DNA of 64,000 nt from Acidobacteriota bacterium (GTDB lineage: Bacteria; Acidobacteriota; Vicinamibacteria; Vicinamibacterales; CAVVIG01): assembly GCA_003222395.1 (NCBI GenBank), contig QHWB01000052.1:124001-188000 (forward strand), given 5' to 3'. A model generated the notes under the pieces. It saw only the letters and a list, made by a program, of their open reading frames with translations. It searched no databases and had not been told where the DNA came from. Below, piece after piece: positions 10,376-41,289 of the stretch. The translations under genes and the position numbers were made by a program. Positions within the stretch are counted from its first letter, which is position 1; each line of letters begins with the position of its first letter.

Positions 10376-13300
10376 TCAGTCTCTTATCCCTGCGCGCGCC
10401 GTATCCCTGTACACCCACCAGCTGAAGCCCGACGCGATGCCGACGAGCATCACGACGAGGAGCAGCGCGATCCACGCCGTCAGCGGCGCGACGACCAGGC
10501 GCGTCGGCAGCAGCTGCACGACCGTACGAATTTCGCGCAGACGCCACACGTAGTTGGCAAGGCCGAAGCCGGCAAGCACCGCCGATCCGGCGCCGAGCCC
10601 CAGGCCGACGAGCGCCGGCGACAGCAGCGTCGCGACGACGAAGCGCCACATCGACGCGGGCGAGGCGCCGCGAATCCGCAGCAAGGCGAGCGTCCGGCGG
10701 TCTTCAGTGTAATTAGCCATGGCGACCGCGAGAATCGCGATCAGCGCGAGCACCAGACCGCCGATCAGATAGATCCGCATGTTCGCGAGCGCGAGCGAGA
10801 TGTACATGTCACTGCCCACCTTGCCGACTTCCTGCGCGAGGCTGTGGATCTCGAGCGGCGGGAACGGCGCCGCCTTCGCGATCGCGCGCTGGAACGACGC
10901 CGGATCCACGATGCCCTTGGTGCGCAGCAGGACGATGATTCGAGGGATCAGAATCGGCAGCGATCCGATCTGTGCGTTGTCGGCGCTGGTCGCGAGATAG
11001 GCGTTGCTGCTGAACAGGTAGTTCAGGTAGTCGACCCGCGCCTGCACGTAGCCCTGGCGATCGCTGACGCTCTTCGGCGGCAGTCCCGGCAGGAACGCGA
11101 GAATGCCAGCCGCCTTCGACGCGACGGCGCGCCGCTCGGGATCGAGCCCGAGCAGCATCTGCGATCCAGGCTCGAGCCGCCAGAAATCGGCAATCGGCGG
11201 CGATACCGCAATCCGATCCTTCACGGCCGCCACGACGGTCCGAAACTCCGCGCTGAGGCCGACGCTCGGTTCCGAGTACACGCGATCGCGATACTCGTCG
11301 GTGTTGCCGAACAGATACATCGGCACGCCGCGCAGGCCGTAGCCGGGCAGGTAGAAGCTCGGAAGCACCGCCTCGATCATGTACGTCGCATCCTTCACGC
11401 CGCTGATGCCGCGCAGCGACGCGACGAGCTTCAGGATTTCAGGCTTCAGCGCCGCGAGCTGCGACGAAGCGGTGCCGCTCAGGCGATCGACGTCGACGAG
11501 GTCGGGGCCGTTGAACAGAACCTGCCAGTCGGTCCCGAGCTGTACCTGGGCGCCGCGAATCGCCTTGTCCTCGAACGATCGACTCGTGATCGCCGGATAG
11601 AGGCTGACGCTCGACATGAGCGCGACGATCAGCAGGAAAGCGACCATGCGATGCGGCTTCACCGAAATGTGGCGCAGCGCGAACTGGCCGAGCACGCCGC
11701 CAATCGGCTCGATCACCGGCGCCATCACGCGCTGAATCCGCTCCCGCTTCGATGCCATCAGCGTCGCGATGCCGTACAGGAAGAGCGGCAGGCCCAGGAA
11801 ATCGAACAGCCGATCGACGAGGCGGAACCACGCGAACGTATCGGACACCGCGAAGTCGAAGATCCATCCGAACAGCACATATCCGCCGACGAGCAGCGCC
11901 AGTTGCTGCACCGGACCGAACGTCATCGACGCTTCCACCGCTTCGGATCCTGCGACGCGGCGCGAGGCTTCGAGCGGCGAGATCGTCATCGCATACTTCA
12001 CCAGCCGCCGGCTGACGATCAGCGCGAGCGCGACCGAGATCAGGAGGAACGCCGCGAACATGCCGAGCTGCCGCGGCTCGGTCAGCACGCCGGGCGGCAG
12101 GTGGCCTCGCTCGTACGCCAGCAGCGGCAACACCGATCCGGCGGCGAGACCGAGCAGTCCACCGGCCAGGCCGCCCCCGACGATGCTCACGAGCAGCGCG
12201 CGCGCCATCAGATCGCCGGAAATGCCGCGAAGGCGCATCAACCCGAGCGTGCGCCGCTCGTTAAGCATCAGCAGGCCGGCGAGGTTCCCGGCGAGCACCC
12301 ACGCCATCCACAGCAGCGGCAGCGCAACGAGCAGCGACACGAGGCCGATCAGCCGCGCGATCCCCTGCATCCGTTCGAGCAGTACTTCCGTCGTGCTGTC
12401 GACGACGAAGCTCACGCTGCCGCTGAATTTCGAATCGTCTTCCGGCGGTTCACCGGCTTCGTGGCTGTGGCCGGGCACAGGCTCCTGCAGCGCGCCTTTT
12501 GGAACCGGCGCGTTCTCCTCCGCGCTGCTGTGAAGCCGGCGATTGAGCGCCTGCACGTTGGCGAGCGATCCGGGAATGTCCCAGCCGGACACGAGGCTGG
12601 CGCGATCGATGCGGGCGAGGTACACGACCTCGGGCGCGTACTCCGCCATCTGAATGTGCCCCGCGTCCTGATCGGCGACGCCGACAATGTCCGAAGGGAC
12701 GAACCCGGTGGCGACCTGATCGAACTTCGTCAGGACGTCCCATTCGTACGGCATCAGCAGAATCGCGCCGATGTATGGGACGTAGCTGACCGATCCGGTT
12801 TGATCCATCAGCCAGCGATTCAGCTCGTCGCGATCGAGCCGGACGACTTTGTTCACGGGCGTGTTGAAGAGGAACCGCGGCTGATCCTGGACGTGGACCT
12901 GCAGCGTGAAGTCACGCGCGCCCTGCAGCGCGAGGAACGCCTTGCCCATCGCGTACTCGGGACCGATGAGCGACAGGACGGCGCCACGCCGGGCTGGCGG
13001 CTTCTGGTCGCTGTCGTAGGGCGAGCCTTCTAGGCGAGCCGAACGCTCGGCTGAAAGCCTCGCGCTACCGTCGTCGTGCTCCAGCGCGAGGCTCAATTCC
13101 GGCGGCAGGATCGACGGATCGGACGCGGCGAGCAGACAGAGCCACGGCGTGGTGAACGGCTTGCGATCGACCTGCGCCTCGACCTCGCCGCCTTCCGGAA
13201 AGCGCGCGCGCAGGAAGGCCATGCTTTCCACGCGCGTCACGCCTCTCGTCTTCGCGATGTGCCTCGACAAGCTGCGGTCGTTGCCGACGGCGCCCTGCTG

Positions 13301-13471
13301 ATAAATCGCGAGATCCCACGGAATGCGCCGGAGCTGATCCTCGACGTACAGCTTCAGCGCGTACCGCGATGTGATGTTGACCGTCGCGAGCAGCGCCCCG
13401 ACGAGAAAGGTGACGAGGCCGAAGGTGAGGATCGCGCGGCGGCCGAGAATGCCCAGGAGACGCCGGATCAT
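10376..13471 (-). CDS. FtsX/MacB-type ABC transporter permease with duplicated FtsX domain
   Basis: The 1031-residue membrane protein has an N-terminal helix (AILTFGLVTFLVGALLATVN), a large periplasmic domain, and a cluster of helices around residues 380-500 (LIGLVSLLVALPLLWMAWVL, AFLLISVALALIVSRRLVK). A second extracellular block and a C-terminal helix cluster (LVLALIAILAVAMANYTEDR, then RRTLALLRIRGASPASMW) follow. The TLGLMRLRGIS and TLALLRIRGAS repeats are the coupling-region hallmarks of two FtsX domains. It is probably an exporter or outer-membrane lipid/protein handling complex with the ATPase at 9428-10129. Its ATG overlaps the TGA of the beta-propeller gene upstream (ATGA). A dispersed repeat is embedded in frame at about 13045-13070. 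Confidence 0.85.
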   Translation of the reverse strand: MIRRLLGILGRRAILTFGLVTFLVGALLATVNITSRYALKLYVEDQLRRIPWDLAIYQQGAVGNDRSLSRHIAKTRGVTRVESMAFLRARFPEGGEVEAQVDRKPFTTPWLCLLAASDPSILPPELSLALEHDDGSARLSAERSARLEGSPYDSDQKPPARRGAVLSLIGPEYAMGKAFLALQGARDFTLQVHVQDQPRFLFNTPVNKVVRLDRDELNRWLMDQTGSVSYVPYIGAILLMPYEWDVLTKFDQVATGFVPSDIVGVADQDAGHIQMAEYAPEVVYLARIDRASLVSGWDIPGSLANVQALNRRLHSSAEENAPVPKGALQEPVPGHSHEAGEPPEDDSKFSGSVSFVVDSTTEVLLERMQGIARLIGLVSLLVALPLLWMAWVLAGNLAGLLMLNERRTLGLMRLRGISGDLMARALLVSIVGGGLAGGLLGLAAGSVLPLLAYERGHLPPGVLTEPRQLGMFAAFLLISVALALIVSRRLVKYAMTISPLEASRRVAGSEAVEASMTFGPVQQLALLVGGYVLFGWIFDFAVSDTFAWFRLVDRLFDFLGLPLFLYGIATLMASKRERIQRVMAPVIEPIGGVLGQFALRHISVKPHRMVAFLLIVALMSSVSLYPAITSRSFEDKAIRGAQVQLGTDWQVLFNGPDLVDVDRLSGTASSQLAALKPEILKLVASLRGISGVKDATYMIEAVLPSFYLPGYGLRGVPMYLFGNTDEYRDRVYSEPSVGLSAEFRTVVAAVKDRIAVSPPIADFWRLEPGSQMLLGLDPERRAVASKAAGILAFLPGLPPKSVSDRQGYVQARVDYLNYLFSSNAYLATSADNAQIGSLPILIPRIIVLLRTKGIVDPASFQRAIAKAAPFPPLEIHSLAQEVGKVGSDMYISLALANMRIYLIGGLVLALIAILAVAMANYTEDRRTLALLRIRGASPASMWRFVVATLLSPALVGLGLGAGSAVLAGFGLANYVWRLREIRTVVQLLPTRLVVAPLTAWIALLLVVMLVGIASGFSWWVYRDTARAGIRD
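13045..13070. repeat. Dispersed CGGCTGAAAGCCTCGCGCTAC element inside the permease coding sequence
   Basis: The motif GCTCGGCTGAAAGC-CTCGCGCTAC occurs here in frame within the permease (encoding the ARLSAERSA stretch). It recurs at about 29667-29693, 37478-37502 and, in the opposite direction, as the building block of the tandem array at 39930-40112. This pattern is typical of a REP-like mobile motif tolerated within a surface loop. Confidence 0.6.
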
Positions 13472-15795
13472 TGCGCTGAAGGCTCCCTAAAGAGCTCTGG
13501 TTTCAGGAACGTGAACAGGCCGTTCCATATCGCGTCGGGCGCGATCACTTCGCCGTCGCGCGCGTTGAAGGTGACGCCGGCCGGATGCACGATGCCGGTC
13601 GACCGCCCCTTGATCAGCGATCGCGGCGGCGCGTCGCCATCGTCGGCGACGTCGTCCCACACGCCGATGAATCCTTCGGTGCCGGTGTTCCACGGCGACG
13701 GCAGCTCGACGTTCGGGTCGAGACCGGCGCGCGGCGTGTCGATGTTGTAGGGCGGCAGGTACTCATTATTAATAGCCGCGACGTAGATCTTACCGGTCTC
13801 GGGGTCGAGCGCGATTTGACGCAAGCGCGTGATGCCGGACTTCGGGCCCGCGATGACGCGCTTCGGCGCGACGTCACCGTTGTCGGTGCGGCCGAACATC
13901 AGGAGGCCGGTGACGCCGCCCGGCAGGCGCGAATAGGTCGACACGACGAGCACGTCGCGAACCGGATCGACGGCGACGCCGACAATCTGCAGCAGCTTCG
14001 TCTTCGGTCCCTGGATCGTGCGAATGGGCGCCGCGTCGCCGTCCGCCGTTCTGCGATAGACCAGCACGCGCCGATCGCCCGGATCGCCGACGACGATCTC
14101 GTTGTTCTTCTCGTCGACCGCGACGGTTTCGGGCCGCGACAAACCGGTGCGCGCGCCCTGAATGGTCCGGACGGGCGCTTCCTCGCCGGACGCAGCGCCG
14201 CGGAAGATCACGATAGCCGCGGCCAGCGGATTGGGCGCGACGATCTCGTCGTTGGTCGTGTCGTATGCGATCCCGTGCGTCGTGCGGCTCAAGCGCGTCA
14301 GCTGTCCCTGAATCACCCTCGCCGGCGCCACGTTCCCGTTTGCCAGCCTGGCAAACGCCGCAATGCGCGGCTGGCTGACTCAATTGGGGACGAGGATCTC
14401 GCGCCGCTTCGTGTCGAACGCGACGGAGTACGGATTGCCGAAGCCGCTCGTCTCGCGCCCCGCGGGGGCGTTGCGAATGATGCGGCGCGGCCGCACGTTG
14501 CCCGCGGCGACGCGCGGAAACACGAGCGCCGTGTGATCGCCGAAGTTGGCGACGTAGATTTCGTCGTTGGCGATCGCCACGCCCATCGGTCCCTTGATGC
14601 CGGTCAGTGGCCCGCGAATGACGCGGCGGGGCGGCACGTCGCCATCGGCGGTCCGCGGGAACACGAGCACCGAGTTGTCACCGTTGTTGGCGACGACGAT
14701 CTCGCTGTTCGCCTCGTCTACGGCGACGCCCATCGGCCAGTCGATCTGGCTCAGCGGTCCCTGGATGACGCGCCTGGGCGCGACGTCGCCGTTCGCGTCG
14801 CCGTCGTAGACGGTCACCGACGAAGGAAGGAACCGGCCGCGCGCGTTCTCGTCGATCTTGTCTCCGCCGCTCCGCTCCTGACGCGATTCACGCGCGTCGT
14901 ACGCGGTGTAGGAGGTGATCAGCTCGCCCGGCCGGAAGTTGCCGTGGTTCGCGACGACGACTTCGTTGTGCGTCTCGTCGAAGTAGATGCCGTGCGGATC
15001 GGCCATCTGCGTTTTCGGACCGCGCACCGAGCGGACCGGCGCGTCGAACTTCTTCGCGTCGCGCCTGAAGACGACGACCATGTTCGGCGTCTGCACCGAG
15101 AGCGCGATCACGTCGCGTTTGGGCGCGAACGCGATGCCCCACGACTGATGCGGAACGTACAGCAGCCGCTTCGGGCTCACGTTGCCGCGCGCGCCGTAAT
15201 CGAACACGACGAGGCGATCTTCGACGTCGTTGTTCACGGTGAAGAGCTCGCGGTGCGCCGGATCCATCGCGACGCCGGCGACGAAGCCGACGCCGGTGTC
15301 GGGCCCCATGATTTGCTGGCGCGGCGCCGCCGCCTCTTTCGACGTCGGGCTTCCCGCGTCCCGGTCGTACACCAGCAGGCTCTTGCGGTTGGTGTCGCTC
15401 ATCATCACGAGCTTGTTCGTGCTGTCGACCGCCACGCCGTTGAAGCTCGGATACGGATCGACGACCATCCGCACCGGCGCGAGATCGCCGCCTTCGGCGT
15501 CGCTGCGTTTGGGAATCGCAATCCGGGATTGTTCAGCATCGGTCCGGCTAAAGCCGGACACTACATGAGACGCCGCATCCACAACAGACGCCGCATCCGT
15601 TCCGTTGGAGTGTCCGGCTTCAGCCGGGCCATCCACGCCGTCCGGCATCAGGCACATCGCGCCTTCGGTTTCCTCGGCCGCCTCGGTGGTGGCGACGAAC
15701 ATCTCTTCAACCGACGGACCGCCGCCCGGCGTGATCAGGCACACGCCTGTGATGAACGCGAGCGTCGTCAGGATGCGGCGCAGCGTATTGGTCAT
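13468..15795 (-). CDS. Secreted NHL-like beta-propeller protein, probable selenoprotein, copy 1 (in-frame TGA at 14380-14382)
   Basis: If the single in-frame TGA is decoded, the protein has 775 residues with the special residue at 472. The N-terminus has a signal peptide. The rest is a string of repeats of the form EIVVAN-x-GD-S-VLVFPRTADGD-xPPRRVIRGP-TGI, as in NHL or SMP-30-like propellers. The first half ends EILVPN, TGA follows, and VSQPRIAAFARLANGN continues the next repeat without loss of frame; the second half alone has no signal peptide. The codon after TGA is GTC, so a restart is not favoured. The gene overlaps the ABC permease by ATGA. The N-terminal linker contains an inserted palindromic repeat. 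Alternatively there are two separate proteins of 471 and about 287 residues. Confidence 0.75.
14338..14356 (-). promoter_or_regulatory. Candidate SECIS-like hairpin of beta-propeller copy 1
   Basis: On the coding strand GTTTGCCA-GGC-TGGCAAAC forms an 8-bp stem with loop GGC. It starts 24 nt after the TGA, and its loop starts 32 nt after it. The identical hairpin at the identical distance follows the TGA in two paralogs. Confidence 0.7.
15541..15630. repeat. Palindromic repeat inserted in the N-terminal coding region of beta-propeller copy 1
   Basis: Inverted arms of about 22 bases lie at 15541-15562 (GGTCCGGCTAAAGCCGGACA) and 15609-15630 (TGTCCGGCTTCAGCCGGGCC), separated by a direct repeat of GACGCCGCATCC. 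In the gene frame it encodes the low-complexity segment around GPAEAGHSNG and HVVSGFSRTD. Paralogs at 24143 and 38590 lack this segment at the equivalent linker, so it is a secondary insertion that kept the frame. Confidence 0.7.
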
Positions 15796-15894: not shown

Positions 15895-17796
15895 TCAGTT
15901 GTTCCCGCGTTTGCCCGGCGCGACAGGACCCAGCGTGATCTTCGCTCCGGCGCCGGGGAAGTAATGTTCGTACGTCCCCTTGTTCGCCTTGTCGAGCAGC
16001 TGCAGCGAGTACTTGCCCGGATCGGGCGCGTAATCCTTCAGGTAGTCGCCGGGCGCGTTGATGCCGGGCACCTCGGGAATCCAGTCCTCGGTCAGCAGGT
16101 AATTGGGATCGCCGTACCGCGACGCGAGCGCGCGCACCTCGGGGTTGTCGAGGCTCGTCATGTGCCCCTTCTCGAGCACGTTCACCCACCTGTTCGCGTT
16201 GCGCAGACGCAGCCGATAGGTCGTGAAGTACGTGTGCGTGTGCCAGCCGTGATCGAACGGCACGTTGTTCTTCTCGCTGAACTCGCGCCACACCTTCGAC
16301 TCGGTGGGCGCATCCGGGTCGTGCCACAGGCGGATGCCGAGACCCCAGTGAATCACGCCGCTGCGGACGCGGTCCGGGCTCGTGTTGCCGGTCTTCAGCA
16401 GCGGAATCGGATGGCGGAACGCCTTCGGATGCGAACCGAACGCGATCTCGTACAAGTACCAGAACCCCGGTTGATTGTGGTACGGGTACGTCATGTTATT
16501 CAGCTTGTCCCACTTCACGAACTCTTTCAGCGCTTCACCCTGCGCGCCGCCGCCCTTCACGTCGGAGATGAAGCCGTTGGTGAACGTGATCTCCCACCGC
16601 GGAAAGAATCCTCCGTGGCCCTGCGTGCCGGCGATGGTGCCGTTCACGCGCGCGATTGGTTCGCGCGCCAGCCACTTCTGCTGGAACGCCGGGTAGTTCA
16701 CGAACGAATAGCCGAAACGGCCCGTCGCCTGGTTGGGGAACATATATAGATGTCCGCGCTGATACGCGCCCGCCGCCCAGCGCTGCGCCATCTCGTCGGT
16801 GATGTCTGCCCACACATCGAGTCCCTCCGGATCCTTCGCCTCCATCCGATCCACGAAGACGAGCGGCTCGAGCAGCTGCTCTTCGGCGAGCTGCCAGACG
16901 TCGCCCGGATAGGTCGACATCTGGCTTTGCAGCGTGTACACGTTGTCGGTGACGAACGTGCCGAGGAATTTGTCGGACATCGGATAGAGCTGCCGGCGCA
17001 GCCCCGTACTGCCCCCCTGTCCCCAGAACACGCCGCGCACTTCCGGATGCGCCGTCAGATATTTCTTGATCCCTTCGCCGACGGCGTTGCGGCTGCGGTA
17101 ATCGGTGCTCGTCGCCGCGCCGGTGTCCGCGTCTTCGCCTCCAGGGCCGCCCGCGCCCCCGGCGGCTTCGCCGCGCGGGCGCTGTTTCGGCGCGTTCGGG
17201 TCGTACGTCACGTCGCCGGTCTCGCCCGGGAACAGCTCTTTGTAGACGTCGGGCCGCCGCGCCTTCAGCCACGCTTTCGGCTCCGCCGGATTCGGGAACT
17301 GGTTCTCGATCCACTGCGACGCCTGATAGATGCCCGCCTTCGTGATGTCGTGCCCCTTCTCCCGGCGCGCGATGCGCGCGTCGGCGGCTTCTCTGGTCTC
17401 GCCGGCCATCTCGTAGACGAACTTCATGTGCGGCGTGATCCTGCGCTCGCCGAGCGCGCGCTTGATCGCGTCGAGCACCATCGGGTCGGCGTCGTTGTTG
17501 GCGACGATCAGAACCTGATCGCCCGGCTGCAGGATGCCCATGCCCTTGCCCTGCAGCCCCGACTGATTGCGCACGAACGATCGCGCGGCGTCCATCAGGT
17601 CGTCGATCGACTTGGGCGGCTTGAAGTACGAAGGCCAGCGCGGCTCGGGATACTTCTCGCCGTTCGCGCCGGCGCGTGTCGCGGCGCTCGCAGATTCGGT
17701 GCGCCCTTTATCGGCGCGTCCGCACGCGGCAGCGACAATGATGGCGGTGAGAAACAACACGCTCGCCAGCCTGACCGCGTTCGAAGCAAGTTTCAT
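15895..17796 (-). CDS. Large lipoprotein of unknown function (distant resemblance to M29-like aminopeptidases)
   Basis: The protein is 633 residues. The N-terminus has a hydrophobic signal and a lipobox-like VAAAC, so the mature protein is probably a lipid-anchored periplasmic protein. It has a Gly-rich linker near residues 210-225. The segment GTIAGTQGHGGFFPRWEITF, then TNGFISDVKGGGAQGE and the later FGSHPKAFRHP and VIHWGLGIRL, recall the C-terminal region of M29 thermophilic aminopeptidases, but I do not see a confident complete metal site. It lies between a TonB receptor and the copy 1 beta-propeller gene on the same strand. Function is uncertain. Confidence 0.7.
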   Translation of the reverse strand: MKLASNAVRLASVLFLTAIIVAAACGRADKGRTESASAATRAGANGEKYPEPRWPSYFKPPKSIDDLMDAARSFVRNQSGLQGKGMGILQPGDQVLIVANNDADPMVLDAIKRALGERRITPHMKFVYEMAGETREAADARIARREKGHDITKAGIYQASQWIENQFPNPAEPKAWLKARRPDVYKELFPGETGDVTYDPNAPKQRPRGEAAGGAGGPGGEDADTGAATSTDYRSRNAVGEGIKKYLTAHPEVRGVFWGQGGSTGLRRQLYPMSDKFLGTFVTDNVYTLQSQMSTYPGDVWQLAEEQLLEPLVFVDRMEAKDPEGLDVWADITDEMAQRWAAGAYQRGHLYMFPNQATGRFGYSFVNYPAFQQKWLAREPIARVNGTIAGTQGHGGFFPRWEITFTNGFISDVKGGGAQGEALKEFVKWDKLNNMTYPYHNQPGFWYLYEIAFGSHPKAFRHPIPLLKTGNTSPDRVRSGVIHWGLGIRLWHDPDAPTESKVWREFSEKNNVPFDHGWHTHTYFTTYRLRLRNANRWVNVLEKGHMTSLDNPEVRALASRYGDPNYLLTEDWIPEVPGINAPGDYLKDYAPDPGKYSLQLLDKANKGTYEHYFPGAGAKITLGPVAPGKRGNN

Positions 17797-20942: not shown

Positions 20943-21058
20943 AGCGTGGAACCTCCCCGGCTGAAGGTCAGACCATTGCCGGTGCAGCGTGCGGCGCGGC
21001 GCGGCGCGAAGTCAAGGGAAAAGTGATATGTTGTCGCGACGAGCGGGAGGTCTCACAG

Positions 21059-24000
21059 ATGCGTGCGTGCCTCGTAGCGTTCCTCGTTCTCGTCCTCGCC
21101 TCGACCGCCGTCGCACAGATCACTTCAGCGACGATCTCCGGCACCGTCAAGGATCAGACGCAAGGCGTACTGCCCGGCGTCGACGTCGTCGTCAAGAACG
21201 TCGATACCGGATTGACGCGCTCGGCCGTCACCGACGGCAGCGGCTACTTCACGATCCCCGGATTGCCGCCCGGCGCGTACGAGACGCGCGCCAGCCTGCA
21301 GGGCTTCGGCAGCGTCGTCGAACGAGTGACGCTCGCCGTGGCGCAGGAAGCCGGCCTGAGCCTCACACTGAAGGTGACCGGCACGGAAGAGTCGATCATC
21401 GTCGTCGGAACCGCGGCCATCGTCGACACGCGGAGCGCGGCGATGTCGGCCGTCGTGACGGAGAAGACGATCTCCGAGCTGCCGCTGAACGGCCGCAACT
21501 ACATCGACCTCGCGCTGCTGCAGCCGGGCGTCAACAGCTTCAGCGAGAAGGACAGCACGTCGTCATCGAACCGCGGGACGAAGCTGAACATCAACGGCAT
21601 GAGCTTCCGATCGAACAGCTATCTGCTCGACGGGGCGAACATGAGGGGGTACGCGGGTACGGCGACGGTCTCCGCCGCCGAGACGACGCTGGGGGTCGAC
21701 ACGATCATGGAATTTCGCGTCGTCACCAACGCCTACTCGGCCGATTACGGCCGCGCGATGGGCGGCGTGATCAGCCTCGTGACGAAGAGCGGCACGAACC
21801 ACGTCCGCGGCTCGGGCTTCGAGTTCTTCCGCGACAGCGCGATGGACGCGCGCAACTTCTTCGATCGGGGCGACGATCCGCCGCCGTTCACGCGCCATCA
21901 GTTCGGAGCGAGCTTCGGTGGTCCGCTGCAGAAGGACCGGCTCTTCTTCTTCGGCGGCGTCGAGCGGCTGCAGGAGGATCTCGGCATCACGACGACTTCG
22001 TTCGTGCCGACCGACGCCGCGCGATCGGGTGCGCTCTTTCCGATCAATCCGATCGTGGCGCCGTACCTGAAGCTGTTCCCGGCGGCGAACGCCGGCGACG
22101 CGAGCGCCGCGCAGGGCATCGGCATCTTCACCTACGAGAAGAACCAGCCGACGCGCGAGAACTTCTACCAGGGACGCTTCGACTACACGTTCAGCGATAC
22201 CGACTCGGTGTTTGCGCGATACACGTACGACGGCGCCGACCAGAGCGTCACTGCCGGATTTCCGGACTACGGCACCGATTCGGTGTCGCGCAATCAGTTC
22301 TTCACGACCGAGTACAAACGGATCTTCAGTCCCGCGATTCTCAACACGGCGCGCTTCTCGCACAGCCGGCTCCGCTTCGAGCAGCTGCCCGCCTTCCTCT
22401 CCGCGCCCGACCTCTCGTTCATCGCGGGCCAGGATCTGATGGGCGTGATCAGCATCAACGGTTTCACGTCGATCGGCGGAACGAGCAACAACCCGTCGAC
22501 GAACAACAGCTTCTACTGGACGTTCAGCGACGATCTTTCTTACGTGAAGGGACGCCATCTGCTGAAGGCGGGAGCGCTCGCCGAGCACCTGCGGACGAAC
22601 AAGCTCACGGCGACCAACATCCGCGGCAGCTACACGTTCGCGAACCTTCGGTCGTTCCTCGCCGGCACGCCGACGCGCTTCGTCGGCGTACCGCCGGGCG
22701 CACAGCTCGAGCGCGTCCGGCCCAATACGCTGTTCGGCGCGTACGTGCAGGACGATTACCGGGCGACCGACCGGCTCACGCTGAACCTCGGCCTGCGATA
22801 CGAGTTCTATACGATTCCGGCGGAAGCCAACGGGCTCGACACCACGCTGCGCGACATCGTCAACGATCGATCGTTCACGGTCGGCCCGCCGTTCGCTAGA
22901 AATCCGTCGCTCGGCAACATCGCGCCACGCCTCGGCTTCGCGTGGGATGCGACCGGCGACGGCAAGACCGCCATCCGCGGCGGCGCCGGTCTGTATCACG
23001 ACACCGACGGCCCGTTCAACAGCGCCTTCGGCATCGCGTCGTTCTCGCCGCCGTTCGCCGCAACGGCGACGATCAACAATCCGACGTTCCCGCGTCCTGC
23101 CTCGCTGACCGCCGGCGCGGCGAGCGCGCGCACGCTCGATTACAACATCAAGCAACCGTACGGCGTCACGTTCAATGTGAATCTGCAGCGCGAGCTGGCG
23201 GGACACATCACCGCCACGATCGGATATGCCGGCTCGCGCGCCTACAACTTGATGAGCGCCGTCGAAGCCAACCCGGTCGTGCCGGTCATCCAGGCCGACG
23301 GTGCGAAATTCTTCGCCGCGGGCGCCCCGCGCCGCAACACCGCCTTCGGTCCGATCGACTACCGCACCAACGGCGGCCACTCGGAATACAACTCGCTGCA
23401 GCTCAGCGCGCAGAAGCGCTTCAGCCGGCGCTACCAGCTGCAGGCGTCCTACACGCTCGCCAAGTCGATGGACAACCTGCAGGCGCAGTTGAACGCCGAC
23501 GTGAACAACGCGTCGGTGTATCCGCAGGATCCGTACGATCGCGACATCGACTGGGCCCGTTCCGACTTCGACGTGCGCCACGTCTTCCAGGCGAACTTCG
23601 TCTGGGATGTGCCGGGCCGCGAGGGGTCGGCGCTGCTCGACGGGTGGCAGTTCAACGGCATCGTCACGCTCCGCGGCGGCGTGCCGTTCACGGCGGCGCT
23701 CGGCGGGACGAACTGGTCGCGATCGGGCAACACGTCGGGTGAGGATCGTCCGAATCTCAAGCCGGGTGTGAACCCCGACGCGATCGTCCTCGGCGATCCG
23801 GATCACTACTTCGATACGTCTGCGTTCGTGCTTCCGCCGCAGGGCACGTTCGGGGATGCCGGACGGAACACCTTGACCGGCCCGAGCTACGCGATGACGA
23901 ACGTGTCGTTCGTGAAGAACACGAGGATCGGCGCGCTCGGCGGCGGCGGTCAGCTGCAGCTGCGGCTGGAGCTCTTCAATCTCCTGAACCGCGCGAATTT

Positions 24001-24130
24001 CGCGACGCCCGATCGCGTCGTGTTCGCCGCCGCGTCGCCGACCGAGACGGCGCTGCCGACGGCGGGCCGCATCACGCGCACCGTGACGTCGTCGAGACAA
24101 GTGCAGCTCGCGGCGAAGATTCTCTTCTGA
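21059..24130 (+). CDS. Oar-type TonB-dependent receptor
   Basis: This receptor has 1023 residues. The ATG at 21059 sits 8 bases after GGGAGG and gives an ideal signal peptide (MRACLVAFLVLVLASTAVAQ); an upstream in-frame ATG at 21023 is less likely. The regulatory-like domain (ATISGTVKDQTQGVLPGVDV), plug (SELPLNGRNYIDLALLQPGV; GRAMGGVISLVTKSGTNHVR) and barrel ending LAAKILF are all present. It is followed after 12 bases by the copy 2 beta-propeller gene and then a hydrolase, a likely operon for uptake and handling of an extracellular substrate. Confidence 0.93.
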   Translation: MRACLVAFLVLVLASTAVAQITSATISGTVKDQTQGVLPGVDVVVKNVDTGLTRSAVTDGSGYFTIPGLPPGAYETRASLQGFGSVVERVTLAVAQEAGLSLTLKVTGTEESIIVVGTAAIVDTRSAAMSAVVTEKTISELPLNGRNYIDLALLQPGVNSFSEKDSTSSSNRGTKLNINGMSFRSNSYLLDGANMRGYAGTATVSAAETTLGVDTIMEFRVVTNAYSADYGRAMGGVISLVTKSGTNHVRGSGFEFFRDSAMDARNFFDRGDDPPPFTRHQFGASFGGPLQKDRLFFFGGVERLQEDLGITTTSFVPTDAARSGALFPINPIVAPYLKLFPAANAGDASAAQGIGIFTYEKNQPTRENFYQGRFDYTFSDTDSVFARYTYDGADQSVTAGFPDYGTDSVSRNQFFTTEYKRIFSPAILNTARFSHSRLRFEQLPAFLSAPDLSFIAGQDLMGVISINGFTSIGGTSNNPSTNNSFYWTFSDDLSYVKGRHLLKAGALAEHLRTNKLTATNIRGSYTFANLRSFLAGTPTRFVGVPPGAQLERVRPNTLFGAYVQDDYRATDRLTLNLGLRYEFYTIPAEANGLDTTLRDIVNDRSFTVGPPFARNPSLGNIAPRLGFAWDATGDGKTAIRGGAGLYHDTDGPFNSAFGIASFSPPFAATATINNPTFPRPASLTAGAASARTLDYNIKQPYGVTFNVNLQRELAGHITATIGYAGSRAYNLMSAVEANPVVPVIQADGAKFFAAGAPRRNTAFGPIDYRTNGGHSEYNSLQLSAQKRFSRRYQLQASYTLAKSMDNLQAQLNADVNNASVYPQDPYDRDIDWARSDFDVRHVFQANFVWDVPGREGSALLDGWQFNGIVTLRGGVPFTAALGGTNWSRSGNTSGEDRPNLKPGVNPDAIVLGDPDHYFDTSAFVLPPQGTFGDAGRNTLTGPSYAMTNVSFVKNTRIGALGGGGQLQLRLELFNLLNRANFATPDRVVFAAASPTETALPTAGRITRTVTSSRQVQLAAKILF

Positions 24131-24142
24131 CACAGGACTCAT

Positions 24143-26353
24143 ATGCGCAGAGTCATCATCGCAACCGCCGGACTCATGCTGCTGTCGATCGGCAGCTTCA
24201 GGACCGGCGATTCCGCCCGCGAGGGGACGATTTGCCCTGTTCCCTCTTCGTCGATGTCGGAGGCGAGGCTGCTGGCGCTCGAGCGCGAGAACGGCTGTCT
24301 CGACGAGATGGAAGCGGACGACGCGCCGTCGTGGCCGCCGGGCTGGGACAAAGCGACCATCGCGGGCGGCGACGTGCCGCCGGTGCGCGTGGTCTCCGAT
24401 CCGTACCCGACGCTGCACAGCGTCGTCGTCGACGCCGAGCGCGACAAGGTCTTCATGAGCGATCCGAACCGTCATGCGCTCTGGTCGTACGACCGGCTCT
24501 CTGCGTCGAAGGGCAGGGAAATGATCGAGCCGCTGACCGGCATCCGCGGCCCGTCGACCGGCATGATGTTCATCGCCGCGGTGACGCTCGATCGCGAGAA
24601 GCAGGAAATCTACACGGTCGACAACGATATCGGCGACCGCATGATGGTGTTCCCGTACGACGCGGACGGCAACGTCAAGCCGAAGCGCGTGCTCGACGTG
24701 CCGCACCAGGCCTGGGGCATCTCGATCAGCGAAGAACGGAACGAGTTCGCGATCTCGGTCGAGTCGCCGCGCGAGATCGTCATCTACCCGAAGGGCGCCG
24801 AAGGACGCGCGCAGCCGCTGCGAACGATCCGCGGTCCGAAAACCGGCCTCGGCGATCCGCACGGCGTGTTCCTCGACGGCCAGAACAACGAGATCGTCGT
24901 CGCCAACCACGGGAACCAGGGCGGCCGCCAGCCGCCGCCCGGCGACGCGCCGCCGCGGCAAAGGGGCGTGCGTGCTGCGGAGCCGCCGCCGATCGTCGGC
25001 GGCCGGTTCGACGAGCCGTCGATCTCGGTCTACAACGCCGACGCGAAAGGGGACGTCGCGCCGATCCGCAAAATCCAGGGCGCGAAGACCGGCCTGAACT
25101 GGCCGATGGCGATCGACGTCGACCGCAACCGAAACGAGATCGCCGTCGCCAACAACGGCGACAGCTCCATCCGCATCTTCCGTCGGACCGACACCGGCGA
25201 CGTGGCGCCGGTCCGCATCATCAAAGGGCCGCGCACCGGCATCGCCGGGCCGATGGGCGTCGCCTACGATTCGAAGAACAGCGAGATCTGGGTCGCGAAC
25301 TACGGCGATCACACCGCGCAGGTGTTTCCGATCACCGCGAACGGCAACGTCGCGCCGAAGCGCACCCTGCGAAATGCTCCCGGCGGCTCGCCGACCGTCG
25401 GCTTCGGCAATCCCGGAGCGGTCGCGTACGACTCGAAGCGCGACGAGATCCTGGTGCCGAATTGAGTGAGCGAGCCGAGAATCTCGGCGTTTGCCAGGTT
25501 GGCAAACGGAAATGCGGATCCAACGCGGGTGATTTCAGGACAGCAGTCGCGCCTCAGCCGGACGATGCACGGGATCTTCTACGACGACGTCCACGACGAG
25601 ATCGTCGTCCCCGTCGCTCTCGGCGGCGCGGTGTTGACGCTGCCGGGCGATGCCGCCGGCGATGCGCCGCCCAAGCGCGTGCTGCAAGGCCCGAAGACCG
25701 GCATCGTGCAGCCGGACACGATCTACGTCGACCTCAAGCACGACGAACTGATCGTCGAATCGGGCGACGACGCGGTGCTCGTCTTCCCGCGGACGGCGCA
25801 GGGCGACGTGACGCCGAGCCGCCGCATCGGCGGACCGAACTCGGGCGTCAGCAACATCTACGGTCTGGCCGCAGGACGCGATTGCCTCGTCGTCGCCAAC
25901 CGCGTCGACACCGGCGGGCGAGCCTCAGACGACGCCATTCTGGTCTTCAACCGGACGGACAACGGCGATCCGAAGCCGCGCACGAAGATTTCGGGGCCGC
26001 ACACCGGCATCATCAAGATCCGGCAGGTATTCGTCGACGAGGAACGCGGGCTGATCTTCGCGACGATCAAGAACAACTTCGAAGCGTACAACTACGCCGA
26101 CGCGCGGCCATCGCCATGGGATCCGATCAAGACCGGCTTCATCGGCGTGTGGAGCATCGACGACAACGGCGACGTGCCGCCGCGCGGCGTCATCAGGGGA
26201 CCGGCCACCGGACTGGTGTGGCCGGCCGGCGTCGCGATCAATCCGAAGAACCACGAGATCTACGCAATCGACAGCGTGAGCAACGCGCTGTTCATGTTCA
26301 AGATGCCGGAGTTCTTCCTGAAGCTGCCGGGATCCACCGCTGCCGGGAAATGA
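24143..26353 (+). CDS. Secreted NHL-like beta-propeller protein, probable selenoprotein, copy 2 (in-frame TGA at 25463-25465)
   Basis: Decoding the TGA gives 736 residues with the special residue at 441. The N-terminal segment is a signal peptide (MRRVIIATAGLMLLSIGSF). The propeller repeats (EIVVANHGN, EIAVANNGDSSIRIFRRTD, EIWVANYGDHTAQVFPITAN) run up to EILVPN-TGA and continue directly as VSEPRISAFARLANGN, in the same frame, for 295 codons. The TGA-hairpin layout matches copies 1 and 3. The codon after TGA here is GTG, so re-initiation is conceivable only in this copy, but no ribosome site is seen and the product would lack export. The gene begins 12 bases after a TonB receptor and ends 4 bases before a hydrolase start. 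Confidence 0.75.
25489..25507 (+). promoter_or_regulatory. Candidate SECIS-like hairpin of beta-propeller copy 2
   Basis: GTTTGCCA-GGT-TGGCAAAC, an 8-bp stem with loop GGT, starts 24 nt after the TGA. Relative to copies 1 and 3 the only change is the third loop base (C to T), which is silent (CTG to TTG, both Leu) and leaves the stem intact. Confidence 0.7.
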
Positions 26354-26357
26354 CGTG

Positions 26358-27983
26358 ATGAGCGCCTTTCGTGGCCTGGTGATACTTCTATCGCTCGCGT
26401 CCGGCACGGCCGCCGCGCAGGTTCCTGACACGCCGTGCGACAACTTCCTGCTCGCGCCGCGGCAGGTGAAAGGGAAAGCGGTCGGACCGAAGTCGTGCCT
26501 GATGCAGGAGACGAGCGCGACTTACGAGGGGCGCGCGCTGATTCGCCTCGACGTCGGACTCGACGGCACCGTCGACGGGTATCTCGCGAAGGTCGGCAAC
26601 TACAAGGAATACTTCTCGAACTCGCCCGATCTCGTGTTTCCGCAGACGTGGGGGGCGCGCGACATTTTCTTCGGCGTCGCCGCGTACGAGCGCGCGAAGG
26701 GCGCGTCGATGACGATCGTGTTTCCGCGCGATCGGAGCGCGTGGAACGGGAAGATGTGGGTGACCGCGCACGGGCGCGGCACGTCGTTCCAGCAGGGCCA
26801 GCTGAAGGTCTGGAACAGGTACGTGAACCCCGCCAATCCGATCGAGGGGCTCGATCGCTACGACCTGCTGATGGTGGCCAAGGGTTATGCGCTCGTGAAG
26901 ACACGCCGCACGTCGACCGAGGGGCTGGGCGAGATCGTCACGACGCTCGAAGATGGATCGACCGTCGATTACGCGGCGTTCAACGACACGTCCCGCTACA
27001 TCATGGATTTCGCCGACGTGGCGAAGAAGATCGTCGGCGATCGCCTGGGTCAGCCGCCGTCGCGCGTCTACCTGTACGGCCATTCGGCCGGCGCGCGCAT
27101 CGGGCACGCGGCGAACTACGCGCCGGGACTGAACGTCGGTCGCGACGGCAAACGCTTCTTCGACGGCATCCTGGCCGACGATCCCGCGGCGGGCACCTGG
27201 TACCCGGTCGCGATGAAAGACGGCAAGGACGTGCTCTTCTCGACCGACGCCGAAAAGGCCGCGTTCGTGCCGCAGATCGACATCGCGCACCAGATGTACA
27301 ACAACATCTGGGAGCCGAAGCATCCGGCGTGGATGACGGACAGCTATCTTCAGAACAAACGCAACAACGCGCGCATCCTGCGCGACAAGGGCGTCACGAA
27401 GTACCGCATGTACGAGGTGCGCGGCGTCAGCCATGCGGGCGGGGAAAGCGAAGGATGGCGCGGCCAGGTTCTGAACCTCGACCTCGCGAAGGTGATGGAT
27501 CGTTTCATCGACATGATCGATGCGTGGGCCGATCGGGGAGTCGCGCCGCCGCCGACGCATTCGGATTGGGCGCAGCTCGGCGGCGCGAGCCGCGACGGCA
27601 CGATCGAGTACCCGGCGCTCGCGTTTCCGGAAATCGCCTGCCCGCTCGGCGTGTATTTCCCGTTTCCCGAGAGCACGTCGGGCGCCACGTCGTTCGCGGC
27701 GTTCACCGGTGAGGGCCTCGAGCCGCTCGACGGCAAGAAGGTCTTCGTCGACATGAACCGCAACGGCGTGTGGGACCAGCGCGAGACGCCGACGCAGGCG
27801 TGGCGCCGTCTGGGTCTGCTGCAGAAGAACGAAGGGCTCACGCGCGACAAGTACGTCGCGTGCGTGCAGCGCGCCGCCGACCAGCTGCGCGGGGAAGGGT
27901 TTTTCTCCGACAAGACCGCCGCGGCCTACGTCGAGCAGGCGAAGACGGCGGATCTCCAGCCGAAATCACGCGTCAGTCAATGA
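26358..27983 (+). CDS. Secreted alpha/beta hydrolase domain protein
   Basis: The protein is about 541 residues with a signal peptide (LVILLSLASGTAAAQ). The hydrolase core shows MWVTAHGRGTSFQQGQ as the early strand/oxyanion region and RVYLYGHSAGARIGHAANYA as the nucleophile elbow (G-x-S-x-G). A His candidate lies in RGVSHAGGESEGWRGQ, and a C-terminal calcium-like loop DMNRNGVWDQRETP is visible. It resembles the large secreted alpha/beta hydrolase domain proteins of Acidobacteria, probably esterases or related enzymes. It starts 4 bases after the copy 2 beta-propeller stop and is therefore likely co-expressed with it and the TonB receptor. Confidence 0.82.
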   Translation: MSAFRGLVILLSLASGTAAAQVPDTPCDNFLLAPRQVKGKAVGPKSCLMQETSATYEGRALIRLDVGLDGTVDGYLAKVGNYKEYFSNSPDLVFPQTWGARDIFFGVAAYERAKGASMTIVFPRDRSAWNGKMWVTAHGRGTSFQQGQLKVWNRYVNPANPIEGLDRYDLLMVAKGYALVKTRRTSTEGLGEIVTTLEDGSTVDYAAFNDTSRYIMDFADVAKKIVGDRLGQPPSRVYLYGHSAGARIGHAANYAPGLNVGRDGKRFFDGILADDPAAGTWYPVAMKDGKDVLFSTDAEKAAFVPQIDIAHQMYNNIWEPKHPAWMTDSYLQNKRNNARILRDKGVTKYRMYEVRGVSHAGGESEGWRGQVLNLDLAKVMDRFIDMIDAWADRGVAPPPTHSDWAQLGGASRDGTIEYPALAFPEIACPLGVYFPFPESTSGATSFAAFTGEGLEPLDGKKVFVDMNRNGVWDQRETPTQAWRRLGLLQKNEGLTRDKYVACVQRAADQLRGEGFFSDKTAAAYVEQAKTADLQPKSRVSQ

Positions 27984-34145: not shown

Positions 34146-34268
34146 CGATTCGGTTCCCTGTATCGGGCGCCGCCGAACGCCGCGCGCGCCCGGTTTCAGC
34201 CTTGACTGGTCGGCCAAAACCATACACCCTACGGCCAGCAAATGGTAGGACCAAAGGGAGGCTTCGAC

Positions 34269-37200
34269 ATGCGGCTGTCCATTCTGGCGACCGTGGGCTT
34301 CTTCATTCTCGCGCCCGCGACGGCGCCGTCCGCAGTGCACGCCCAGGCGACGACCGGCACGATTTCCGGCGCGGTCACCGACGAATCGAAAGCGGTGCTG
34401 CCCGGCGTCACGATCGTCGTCCGGAACATGGAAACCGGCGCGACGCGGCAGCTCGTCACCGACGAGCGCGGCGGCTTCCGCGCGCTCAACCTGCCGCCGG
34501 GGATCTATTCGGTCACCGCCGAGCTCTCAGGGTTCACCTCCGCGAAGCGCGAGAACCTCACGCTCGAGATCGGCCGCGAGGTGAGCGCCGATCTCTCGCT
34601 GAAAGTCGGCGCGATCAGCGAGAACGTGACCGTCGAGGGCGCGGCCACCAACATCGACTTGAGCAGCGCCGTCGCCGGCGGCGTCGTGTCGACCACGCAG
34701 ATCGCCGAGCTGCCGCTCAACGGCCGGAACTTCATGCAGCTCGCGACGCTGCAGCCGGGCGTCACCGTCAGCCGCGCCACGGCGCGCGATTTCACCGGAG
34801 GCTTCGGCGGCACGCAGGTGTCGATCGGCGGCGCGCGTCCCGAGATGACCGGCTACCTGCTCGAGGGCACCAACATCGCCGACGTGTCCGACAAGGCGCC
34901 GTCGAGCATGGCGGGCGTGCTGCTCGGCGTCGACGCGGTGAAGGAGTTCAGCGTCCAGACGCACAACTACGCCGCCGAGTTCGGCCGCGCCGCCGGCGGC
35001 GTGATCAGCGCCGTGACGAAGTCGGGCACGAACAGCCTCCACGGCGCCGTGTTCGAGTTCCTCCGCGACAGCAAGTTCGACAAGCCGAACTTCTTCGATC
35101 CGATCGACGCCGCGACCGGCACGCAGGTGAATCCGCCGTTCACGCGCAACCAGTTCGGCGGCACGGCCGGCGGCCCGATCGTCCAGAACACGCTGTTCTA
35201 CTTCGGGAGCTACGAGGGACTGCGGCAGGATCTCTCGCTCACGCACCTCGCGCGGCTGCCCAACGCGGCGGCGCACAACGGCGTGCTGCCGACCGGCGCG
35301 GTCGCGATCAACCCGCTCGTCAAGCCGTATCTCGATCTGCTCTTCCCGATCCCGGACGGCCGCGACTTCGGCGACGGCACAGCGGAGCTGCGCCACACCG
35401 ACGTCGATCCGACGCGCGAGAACTTCTTCGTCGGCAAGGTCGACTGGGAAGTCAGCAACGCCAACTCGATGTTCGTCCGCGGATCGAGCGATCGCTCGAA
35501 CGCGACGGCGCATCAGGATCACCCGCAGTTCGTCGAGCCGACGACGACCGATACGCGCTACTTCACCTATCAGGATCAGCACCTCTTCAGCTCGCGCGTG
35601 CTGAACGTCGCGCGCGCGGCCGTCAATCGCACGAACCGCACCGACGATTTCATCCCGACGATCTCGATCCCGCAAAACCTGTACTTCACGGCCGATCCGC
35701 ACTTCGGCGCGATCACGATCACGACCGGCATCAGCGGACCCGGGACGACGGCGACGACGCCCGTCGACTACACGCAGACGATCTTCCAGTACTCCGACAC
35801 GCTGACGCTCAGCTCGAGCGCCCACACGGCGAAGTTCGGCGGCGACTTCCAGCGGTATCATTTCGACGGCTTCTCGTATTCGCGCTTCGGCGGCGAGTTC
35901 CGCTTCACCAGCCTCCAGAACTTCCTCCGCGGCACGGTCAACCGCTTCACCGGCAACATGCCGAACACCGACACGCGCAGGAACATGCGTCAGAGCTACG
36001 TCGCGCTGTTCGCGCAGGACGAGTGGCGGCCGACCAACGATCTCACGCTGAACTACGGGCTGCGCTACGAATTCTTCACCGTGCCGAACGACACGCAGGG
36101 ACGCGTCGCCGGCCTTCTGAGCTTCAACGATCTCGAATCGGGCCCGCAGGGCGTCACGCCGGGCACCGATATGTTCAAGAACCCGTCGAAGCTCGAGTTC
36201 GCGCCGCGGCTCGGCGTCGCGTGGAAACCGTTCGGCGATCAGAAGACGTCGATCAAGGCCGGCGCCGGAATGTTCTACCAGCCGCTCACGACGTCGTACT
36301 ACCGCGGCACCACGTTCCGGATCTATCCGTACTTCGCCGGCGTCGACATCAGGACGGTCCCGACGTTCGGACCGGCCGTCCAGCAGCTGCTGGCGCAGGG
36401 CACCGGCCTCGCGGTGCAGAAGCGATCCGAGTTCATCGACTACGACACGAAGCAGCCGTACACGGCGCAGTACCATGCCAGCGTTCAGCACGAAATCGGC
36501 AGCGGCATCGTCGCCGAAGTCGGCTACATCGGATCGCGCGGCTACAACCTGCCGTTCTACAGCGATCCCAACGCGGTGCCGGTGCGGTTCAACGCGGCCG
36601 ACGGACACTGGCAGGTCGTGCCGGGCGCGGCGCTTCCGTTCCCGTCATGGGGCCGCATCCGCACGCGCACGAACGTGGCGCGCTCCTGGTACAACGGGAT
36701 GACGGCGAGCCTCAACCGCCGATTCGCGAACGGGCTGCTGTTTCAGGGTTCGTACACCTACGGCAACTCGCGCGACACGTGGTCGGGCGGCCTGATCGGA
36801 TCCTCCGACTTCGAGAACGGCGCGGGCAGCGCGACCAGTTACTTCCATCCGGAGAACGAGCTCGGGCCGTCGAGCTACGACGTGCGACATACGCTGGTCT
36901 TCAACGCGGTGTACCAGCTGCCGTTCGGAAAGAGCCTGACGGGCGGCGCGCGGCACCTCGTTCAAGGCTGGCAGGTCGGCGTCGTCGCGAACTACGCGAG
37001 CGGCATTCCGTTCACGCCCTTCATCGGATTCGACTACGCAAAGGATCTGTCGAGCGATCCGAATCCGCAGAAGCCGGACTGGGCCGCGGGCTTCAACCCC
37101 GACAGCGCGATCGTCGGCGCACCTGACAACTGGTTCAACGCGAACGCGTTCGTCCTGCCGCCGGCCGGCGAGTATGGAAACGTGCAGCGGAACAGCCTGC

Positions 37201-37436
37201 GCGGCCCCGATTTGAAGATGGTGGACTTGTCGATCTTCAAGAACGCCCTGGTCGCCAGGCAGAACCTGCAGCTGCGCGTGGAGATCTTCAACCTGTTCAA
37301 CCGCGCGAACTTCGCCACGCCGAACTCCGCCGCGCTCTTCAATCCGGACGGCACGCGGATTCCGGGCGCGACGCAGATCACCCACACCGCGACGACCTCG
37401 CGGCAGGTGCAATTAGGAGTGAAGTTTATTTTCTGA
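34269..37436 (+). CDS. Oar-type TonB-dependent receptor
   Basis: This 1055-residue receptor starts at the ATG at 34269, 8 bases after GGGAGG. The signal peptide ends VHAQ, the regulatory-like domain is TGTISGAVTDESKAVLPGVT, and the plug motifs are AELPLNGRNFMQLATLQPGV and GRAAGGVISAVTKSGTNSLH. The barrel ends VQLGVKFIF. It faces the copy 3 beta-propeller gene (37654-39900) in a convergent arrangement, in contrast to copy 2 where receptor and propeller share a strand. The substrate is unknown. Confidence 0.93.
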   Translation: MRLSILATVGFFILAPATAPSAVHAQATTGTISGAVTDESKAVLPGVTIVVRNMETGATRQLVTDERGGFRALNLPPGIYSVTAELSGFTSAKRENLTLEIGREVSADLSLKVGAISENVTVEGAATNIDLSSAVAGGVVSTTQIAELPLNGRNFMQLATLQPGVTVSRATARDFTGGFGGTQVSIGGARPEMTGYLLEGTNIADVSDKAPSSMAGVLLGVDAVKEFSVQTHNYAAEFGRAAGGVISAVTKSGTNSLHGAVFEFLRDSKFDKPNFFDPIDAATGTQVNPPFTRNQFGGTAGGPIVQNTLFYFGSYEGLRQDLSLTHLARLPNAAAHNGVLPTGAVAINPLVKPYLDLLFPIPDGRDFGDGTAELRHTDVDPTRENFFVGKVDWEVSNANSMFVRGSSDRSNATAHQDHPQFVEPTTTDTRYFTYQDQHLFSSRVLNVARAAVNRTNRTDDFIPTISIPQNLYFTADPHFGAITITTGISGPGTTATTPVDYTQTIFQYSDTLTLSSSAHTAKFGGDFQRYHFDGFSYSRFGGEFRFTSLQNFLRGTVNRFTGNMPNTDTRRNMRQSYVALFAQDEWRPTNDLTLNYGLRYEFFTVPNDTQGRVAGLLSFNDLESGPQGVTPGTDMFKNPSKLEFAPRLGVAWKPFGDQKTSIKAGAGMFYQPLTTSYYRGTTFRIYPYFAGVDIRTVPTFGPAVQQLLAQGTGLAVQKRSEFIDYDTKQPYTAQYHASVQHEIGSGIVAEVGYIGSRGYNLPFYSDPNAVPVRFNAADGHWQVVPGAALPFPSWGRIRTRTNVARSWYNGMTASLNRRFANGLLFQGSYTYGNSRDTWSGGLIGSSDFENGAGSATSYFHPENELGPSSYDVRHTLVFNAVYQLPFGKSLTGGARHLVQGWQVGVVANYASGIPFTPFIGFDYAKDLSSDPNPQKPDWAAGFNPDSAIVGAPDNWFNANAFVLPPAGEYGNVQRNSLRGPDLKMVDLSIFKNALVARQNLQLRVEIFNLFNRANFATPNSAALFNPDGTRIPGATQITHTATTSRQVQLGVKFIF

Positions 37437-41262: not shown

Positions 41263-41289
41263 ACGCCCTCCTAGACCTCCCCGATCCAT

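Follow-up and report, generated by a model that had tools for sequence, protein, structure and literature searches.

A predicted selenoprotein family of NHL double-propeller proteins with a conserved in-frame TGA in soil Acidobacteria

A recent inventory (PMC13188914, May 2026) lists 119 bacterial selenoprotein families and subfamilies in its Table 1, and families credited to Haft and Tolstoy 2025 (mSystems) are included there. Most characterised selenoproteins have a thioredoxin-like fold (PMC13188914). No name or domain among the 119 entries points to an NHL or beta-propeller family. The family described here is also absent from NCBIfam 20.0, which gives only a weak 6-phosphogluconolactonase match. 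The literature we searched, mostly as titles and the starts of abstracts, holds no propeller or NHL selenoprotein, and a term search of PMC2398784 and PMC9312934 found no mention of one. The original prediction, made from the sequence alone, knew of no described family of such selenoproteins, and within this inventory, NCBIfam 20.0 and the literature searched this held. The family is likely new to the catalogues, a statement that reaches only as far as the sources checked.

The window is a stretch of 64,000 nucleotides (C64, 124-188 kb) from the draft genome, in 118 contigs, of a soil Acidobacteria. It contains three NHL beta-propeller genes of about 740 codons, each with one in-frame TGA in the context VPN-TGA-V. 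Lengths are given with that TGA read as selenocysteine (Sec).

24143..26353, plus strand: gene 1, NHL double-propeller protein, predicted selenoprotein, 736 amino acids
25463..25465, plus strand: in-frame TGA of gene 1, predicted Sec441
13468..15795, minus strand: gene 2, paralog, 775 amino acids
14380..14382, minus strand: in-frame TGA of gene 2, predicted Sec472
37654..39900, minus strand: gene 3, paralog, 748 amino acids, the protein used for modelling
38590..38592, minus strand: in-frame TGA of gene 3, predicted Sec437

It had been claimed that three beta-propeller paralogs share an in-frame TGA at a common point and that the frame of gene 1 stays open for 295 codons beyond it. Both claims held. 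The three TGAs occupy one alignment column, the joined products of genes 2 and 3 are 47 and 48% identical to that of gene 1, and the frame of gene 1 has this single interrupting TGA and then 295 codons up to a TGA stop. The prediction was silent on strand; genes 2 and 3 lie on the minus strand. The codon right after the TGA is GTG in gene 1 and GTC in genes 2 and 3, so there is no start codon directly after the TGA in the latter two. With gene 3 as query, the source genome gave no family match beyond genes 1-3 at E <= 0.001.

When the window was scanned for TGAs flanked on both sides by coding-like sequence in one frame, 8 places came up. At genes 1-3 a SECIS-like stem of 9 bp follows, and at the other five the stem is 1 to 6 bp. 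The three sites are more than chance would give. The stretch 3' of the TGA is under purifying selection: across 8 homolog pairs dN/dS is 0.06-0.22 after the TGA and 0.08-0.25 before it, lower after than before in 7 pairs and slightly higher after in the remaining one (0.22 vs 0.20).

The gene is carried by 5 of the 27 genomes of the family group. Across the phylum, 9 of 396 genomes gave matches at E <= 1e-30, and those of G275 and G338 are only remote. A search through the genome collection yielded 24 loci, all labelled Acidobacteria; it was seeded with two conserved peptide patterns, and relatives without these patterns would have escaped it. When loci are matched to contigs by hand the family is counted in 18 genomes. 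Seventeen of these span the site, all with TGA, and in the eighteenth the contig ends upstream of it. After deduplication 39 genes span the site, 38 with TGA and one (L057) with TGC; L057 is the only known Cys homolog. The original prediction proposed that TGA or Cys at the residue after LVPN would support Sec. Counting by the motif [LVI]xPN with later loci included, 61 of 62 distinct sites have TGA and one has Cys (TGC), which favours Sec; in this search of Acidobacteriota loci TAA or TAG was found at 0 of 62 sites, and Trp also at 0 of 62. Homologs complete at LVPN as separate proteins were to have refuted the claim, and none was seen among 45 sequences.

The members of that set without a TGA at the site can each be accounted for. 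L057 has Cys, L037 and L063 are contig-end fragments (the contig of L063 ends with the stop codon itself), L030 and L031 are pieces split by gaps or frameshifts, and L038 and L039 are two remote NHL proteins. Of 53 motif matches, a TGA and a TGG in unrelated frames are left out of the counts. Also left out are the non-TGA rows L078, L096 and L100 minus strand, which align to other repeats or to unrelated stretches, and three loci without coverage of the site. Two GCC matches, in another blade of L048 and L065, are left out of the 62-site count, and no site was obtained for L107 and L109.

Copy number varies from genome to genome. The source genome has 3 copies. The genome G249 (2.5 Mb, 77% complete) has at least 14 distinct TGA sites; that many Sec sites of one family in so small a genome would be a large selenium investment, and its purpose is unknown. 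G155 and G358 have 6 TGA sites each, by the same pattern as for G249, and the G155 count omits two sites cut or broken just after the TGA. The loci of G249 are L074, L080, L087, L089, L091, L094, L097, L100, L105, L106, L108 and L110, and some of its sites read PN-U-N or PN-U-T instead of PN-U-V, with the hairpin kept. Two loci, L048:993-10196 and L065:786-10055, hold three Sec propeller genes each, a tandem pair on the plus strand and a single gene on the minus strand. Broken members also occur: L098 (G155:C142) loses its frame just after the TGA, and L026/L030/L066 (G014:C37) is a broken or gapped member whose gene is spread over two frames. Some distant homologs show an extra TGA, TAG or TAA. 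We do not claim a second Sec or UAG recoding there, because the extra stops in L041, L042, L033 and L034 are C-terminal, past the last blade, and read as ordinary terminators; this placement covers those four loci and not every locus with extra stops.

The rules for bacterial SECIS elements (bSECIS; PMC13188914, Fig. 2 legend) call for a loop of 3-9 nt with G in the first two positions, a stem of 4-16 bp, a UGA-to-loop distance of 16-37 nt, and a minimum free energy of at most -7.5. A hairpin of this type occupies nucleotides 24-42 after the TGA, with 8 bp, a 3-nt loop and 31 nt from TGA to loop.

25489..25507, plus strand: SECIS-type hairpin of gene 1, 8 bp, loop GGT
14338..14356, minus strand: SECIS-type hairpin of gene 2, loop GGC
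38548..38566, minus strand: SECIS-type hairpin of gene 3, loop GGC

All 38 genes of the A3 alignment satisfy the bSECIS rules for loop, stem and spacing. The energy rule, applied to the bare 19-nt hairpin, is satisfied by 33 of the 38, the remainder being weaker, to -6.6. The loop reads G[G/T]N in 38 of 38 genes. Of the 59 sites whose sequence reaches far enough, 58 have it too; the exception is L098, which has no hairpin and loses its frame directly downstream of the TGA. SECIS-type loops on stems of 7 bp or more follow 37 of 38 TGAs vs 4.0% of 28,225 other codon positions in the same sequences. In the Cys copy L057 the stem is only 3 bp, so the hairpin is lost.

The pairing itself is also supported by covariation. 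Within A3, 95.7% of hairpin cells are paired, as against 27-51% for slid structures. Three pairs show changes on both sides, with 12 double-changed cells. None of 500 shuffles equals the paired cells, the double-changed cells or the score, and 26 of 500 reach the same number of double-changed pairs. The clearest compensatory change is Phe TTT with Ala GCA vs Phe TTC with Ala GCG, both synonymous, and the pair states at this position are 28 UA, 9 CG and 1 UG. The outer pairs vary: of the 38 genes, 8 break the bottom pair and 5 the top pair.

The peptide F.R.A.G comes with 7-8 pairs in 34 of 34 cases at the site vs 3 of 80 in other blades, and its Arg is AGG in 32 of 34 vs 2 of 80. Codon identity over the six hairpin codons is 0.74 vs 0.47 (sd 0.14) over 172 other conserved columns, and these codons are the gene's most conserved window of codon choice. 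The stretch from the TGA to the hairpin contains a second short stem that covaries (A3 columns 12-26; 25474-25488 in gene 1). At one of its pairs both bases depart from the commonest pair in 17 of 38 sequences, and a synonymous Arg CGN/AGN switch tracks an Ala/Ser switch in the partner codon. Rfam gave no family match within the 64,000-nt window.

The presence of the Sec genes in the source genome had been proposed as a further check, and selA, selB, tRNA-Sec (UCA) and selD were all found, each over its cut-off. The selA gene (542 bits) lies at 48 kb on C64, the same contig as the window; selB scores 314 bits, the tRNA-Sec with anticodon UCA 62.5 bits and selD 344 bits. The selD gene of this genome (L103, C26:9514-10446) has one in-frame TGA of its own, at CAG-U-ASK, and for this reason we consider SelD likely to be a selenoprotein as well; its candidate element has the loop GCA after 15 nt, slightly outside the bSECIS rules. 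Of the 18 family-bearing genomes, 17 have a SelB that scores over the cut-off. The eighteenth is G019, in which SelB (G019:C90:12378-14331) is split into consecutive pieces in different frames (168 and 135 bits), a frameshift that may be real or may come from assembly. The co-occurrence is consistent with Sec but weak as evidence, because SelB is common across the phylum (254 of 396 genomes, and 16 of 27 in the family group).

The fold argues for one polypeptide. AlphaFold with the A2 alignment (37 rows) gave a model of the gene 3 protein with pLDDT 83.5 and pTM 0.84, in which twelve blades can be counted by eye. Residues 87-395 match the TRIM3 NHL domain (Z 30.8, 2.2 A, 251 residues). A separate model of residues 396-741 is a six-bladed NHL propeller (pLDDT 81.9), which matches TRIM3 as well (Z 32.1, 2.1 A, 262 residues). 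The NHL profile (PF01436) scores 45.0, 50.6 and 46.3 bits for the three proteins with a cut-off of 20, and with six predicted blades per propeller the criteria for NHL repeats are satisfied. The 7-bladed Lactonase profile (PF10282) scores 30.2, 18.0 and 35.3 bits vs a cut-off of 21.7, over short stretches only. The 6-phosphogluconolactonase model (NF008258, cut-off 370) reaches 23.8 and 20.0 bits in two of the proteins and gives no match in the third. A full-length Foldseek search and a viral structure library returned only generic propellers.

In the model the TGA residue falls in blade seven of the twelve, which is the first blade of the second propeller. Strands 431-436 and 442-447 flank residue 437, and the blade would be cut by a stop at this point. 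It had been inferred that each propeller carries one Sec. This part of the original prediction needs correcting: there is one predicted Sec per double-propeller gene, in the second propeller. Among the residues of A2, His386 and His472 are invariant (37 of 37), as is His242 (36 of 36), and His258 is found in 34 of 36. Cys45 of the arm is present in all 27 rows aligned there. Every one of the 37 rows has at least one further Cys, at varying places (the arm, -22, -167, about -300), some of which may lie inside the signal segment.

We believe it is very likely, with a probability of roughly 0.93-0.95, that the UGA is decoded as Sec within one polypeptide. This is an inference from sequence, with no protein or expression data behind it. 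Those checks proposed in the original prediction that could be computed favoured Sec, and by the field's own criteria the prediction is a strong one. In this view SelA would make Sec-tRNA(UCA) using selenophosphate from SelD, and the hairpin at nucleotides 24-42 after the UGA (8 bp, loop G[G/U]N) would recruit SelB with its Sec-tRNA(UCA), the binding of SelB being inferred. The predicted product would be a single chain with a signal-like N-terminal segment, a flexible arm, a six-bladed NHL propeller and a second six-bladed NHL propeller, with Sec in the loop between strands B and C of the second propeller's first blade.

Three other explanations deserve consideration. The UGA might be read through by an ordinary or suppressor tRNA, inserting Trp, or Cys by way of another UCA tRNA, and the product would be a mixture of a short one-propeller form and a long selenium-free form. 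UGA is the leakiest of the stop codons, the tRNA scan covered selected loci only and so does not exclude other UCA tRNAs in the source genome, and the Cys of the sole non-TGA homolog is also compatible with Cys insertion. However, plain readthrough does not account for a hairpin that matches the bSECIS loop and spacing and is gone in the Cys copy, for a tRNA-Sec (UCA) in the genome together with the remaining Sec machinery, or for the lack of TAA, TAG or Trp at any of the 62 sites. We regard this explanation as very unlikely.

The idea that the TGA is a true stop and that the second propeller is translated separately by coupling draws on the GTG after the TGA in gene 1, which could serve as a start, on the propeller repeats in both halves, and on the second half folding alone in prediction. 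Against it, genes 2 and 3 have GTC at that place, the stop would split blade seven between its strands 431-436 and 442-447, and the codon is TGA at 61 of 62 sites, never TAA or TAG, with one copy left open by Cys. Pseudogenes or assembly errors are suggested by the draft state of the genome (118 contigs) and by gaps or frameshifts in some related loci (L026/L030/L066; L029/L031/L047; L098), but the same TGA recurs in 17 of 18 family-bearing genomes, the eighteenth contig stopping before the site, and dN/dS is low on both sides of it. Separate translation is all but excluded, and so are pseudogenes or assembly errors, which are inconsistent with the data.

If Sec is inserted, as we believe, the question becomes what it does. 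Propeller enzymes keep their active sites on the face that bears such a B-C loop. Because its loop lies on this face, Sec is probably redox or nucleophilic, and we lean toward a catalytic or redox (or nucleophilic) residue, by inference only. It may be partnered by the invariant His472 and by Cys elsewhere in the chain, partners that are likewise inferred. The proteins are likely exported and would act outside the cytoplasm, although export has not been shown. The neighbouring genes offer some hints about their role.

21023..24130, plus strand: Oar-like TonB-linked outer-membrane protein, directly before gene 1 (PF25183, 582.8 bits)
26355..27983, plus strand: hydrolase (Abhydrolase_10; weak Tannase match), directly after gene 1
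15895..17796, minus strand: 633-aa protein without a Pfam match, directly before gene 2
10376..13471, minus strand: FtsX-like permease, with a 4-base overlap with the end of gene 2 (PF02687, 26.6 bits)
34242..37436, plus strand: Oar-like outer-membrane protein converging on gene 3 (PF25183, 552.1 bits)
40222..41289, minus strand: metallo-beta-lactamase-fold protein before gene 3 (PF12706, 35.8 bits)

Between genes 1 and 3 there are also a VWA-domain protein (28585-29628, minus strand) and a MoxR-type AAA ATPase (31538-33532, minus strand). Searches with 15 ORFs of the window found a match within 1.5 kb of 19 of the 32 homolog entries, an Oar-like one for 11; 13 have no neighbour match, some for lack of flank, and two genes are counted twice among the 32, being in pieces. 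The metallo-beta-lactamase-fold protein has matches beside the orthologs L049 and L056 as well. At L048 a LigXa-type Rieske oxygenase lies among the three propeller genes, and at L057 there is one about 4.4 kb away. L065 resembles L048 in layout. Adjacency of Oar-like genes to the family is frequent and not general, and there was no control for chance; such proteins may abound in these genomes.

From these neighbours (Oar-like proteins, the Rieske oxygenase and others) we infer that the family helps to handle organic substrates beyond the cytoplasm. That it shares substrates with the Oar-like TonB proteins is an inference we consider less likely than not, and a link to aromatic substrates is a guess that remains possible. 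There is a named link between selenium and TonB outer-membrane proteins, namely the TonB-dependent receptors with Sec (NF049944 PUIUD and NF049945 FCYXU). In those the Sec is in the receptor itself, whereas the Oar-like neighbour of gene 1 is open, with no in-frame TGA, and matches them only faintly, below both cut-offs (22.9 bits against 850 for NF049944, 19.9 against 825 for NF049945). A bolder reading, possible when taken as a whole, makes these proteins a class of exported propeller enzymes that depend on Sec, which would sit together with conserved His at the mouth of an NHL propeller; the class would have been amplified in soil Acidobacteriota and would work with TonB-dependent uptake, perhaps acting on plant-derived aromatics.

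Gene calling that ends at TGA splits the genes of this family in two. The description of a recent Sec predictor warns that selenoproteins lacking Cys homologs may escape it (PMC12013277); this family is almost without them, and therefore shows where more selenoproteins may hide.

It is worth setting the family beside the two kinds of known system that it resembles. Like known bacterial selenoproteins it has an in-frame UGA, a G[G/U]-loop hairpin at the usual spacing and a Cys homolog, in a genome with SelA, SelB, tRNA-Sec and SelD. Its fold is that of the NHL propellers (PF01436), as in TRIM2, TRIM3, Brat and the amidating lyase PAL. PAL (3fvz) compared with the second propeller gives Z 27.7, a comparison of fold only and not of the catalytic metal site, and identity to solved NHL and PAL structures is 13-23%. 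Unlike those NHL propellers, these proteins have two propellers per chain, a signal-like N-terminus and, by prediction, Sec. The decoding mechanism is already known; the novelty lies in the fold context, the expansion into paralogs and a chemistry not yet known. If the prediction is true, the NHL double-propeller fold joins the selenoproteome, and it does so from little-studied soil bacteria.
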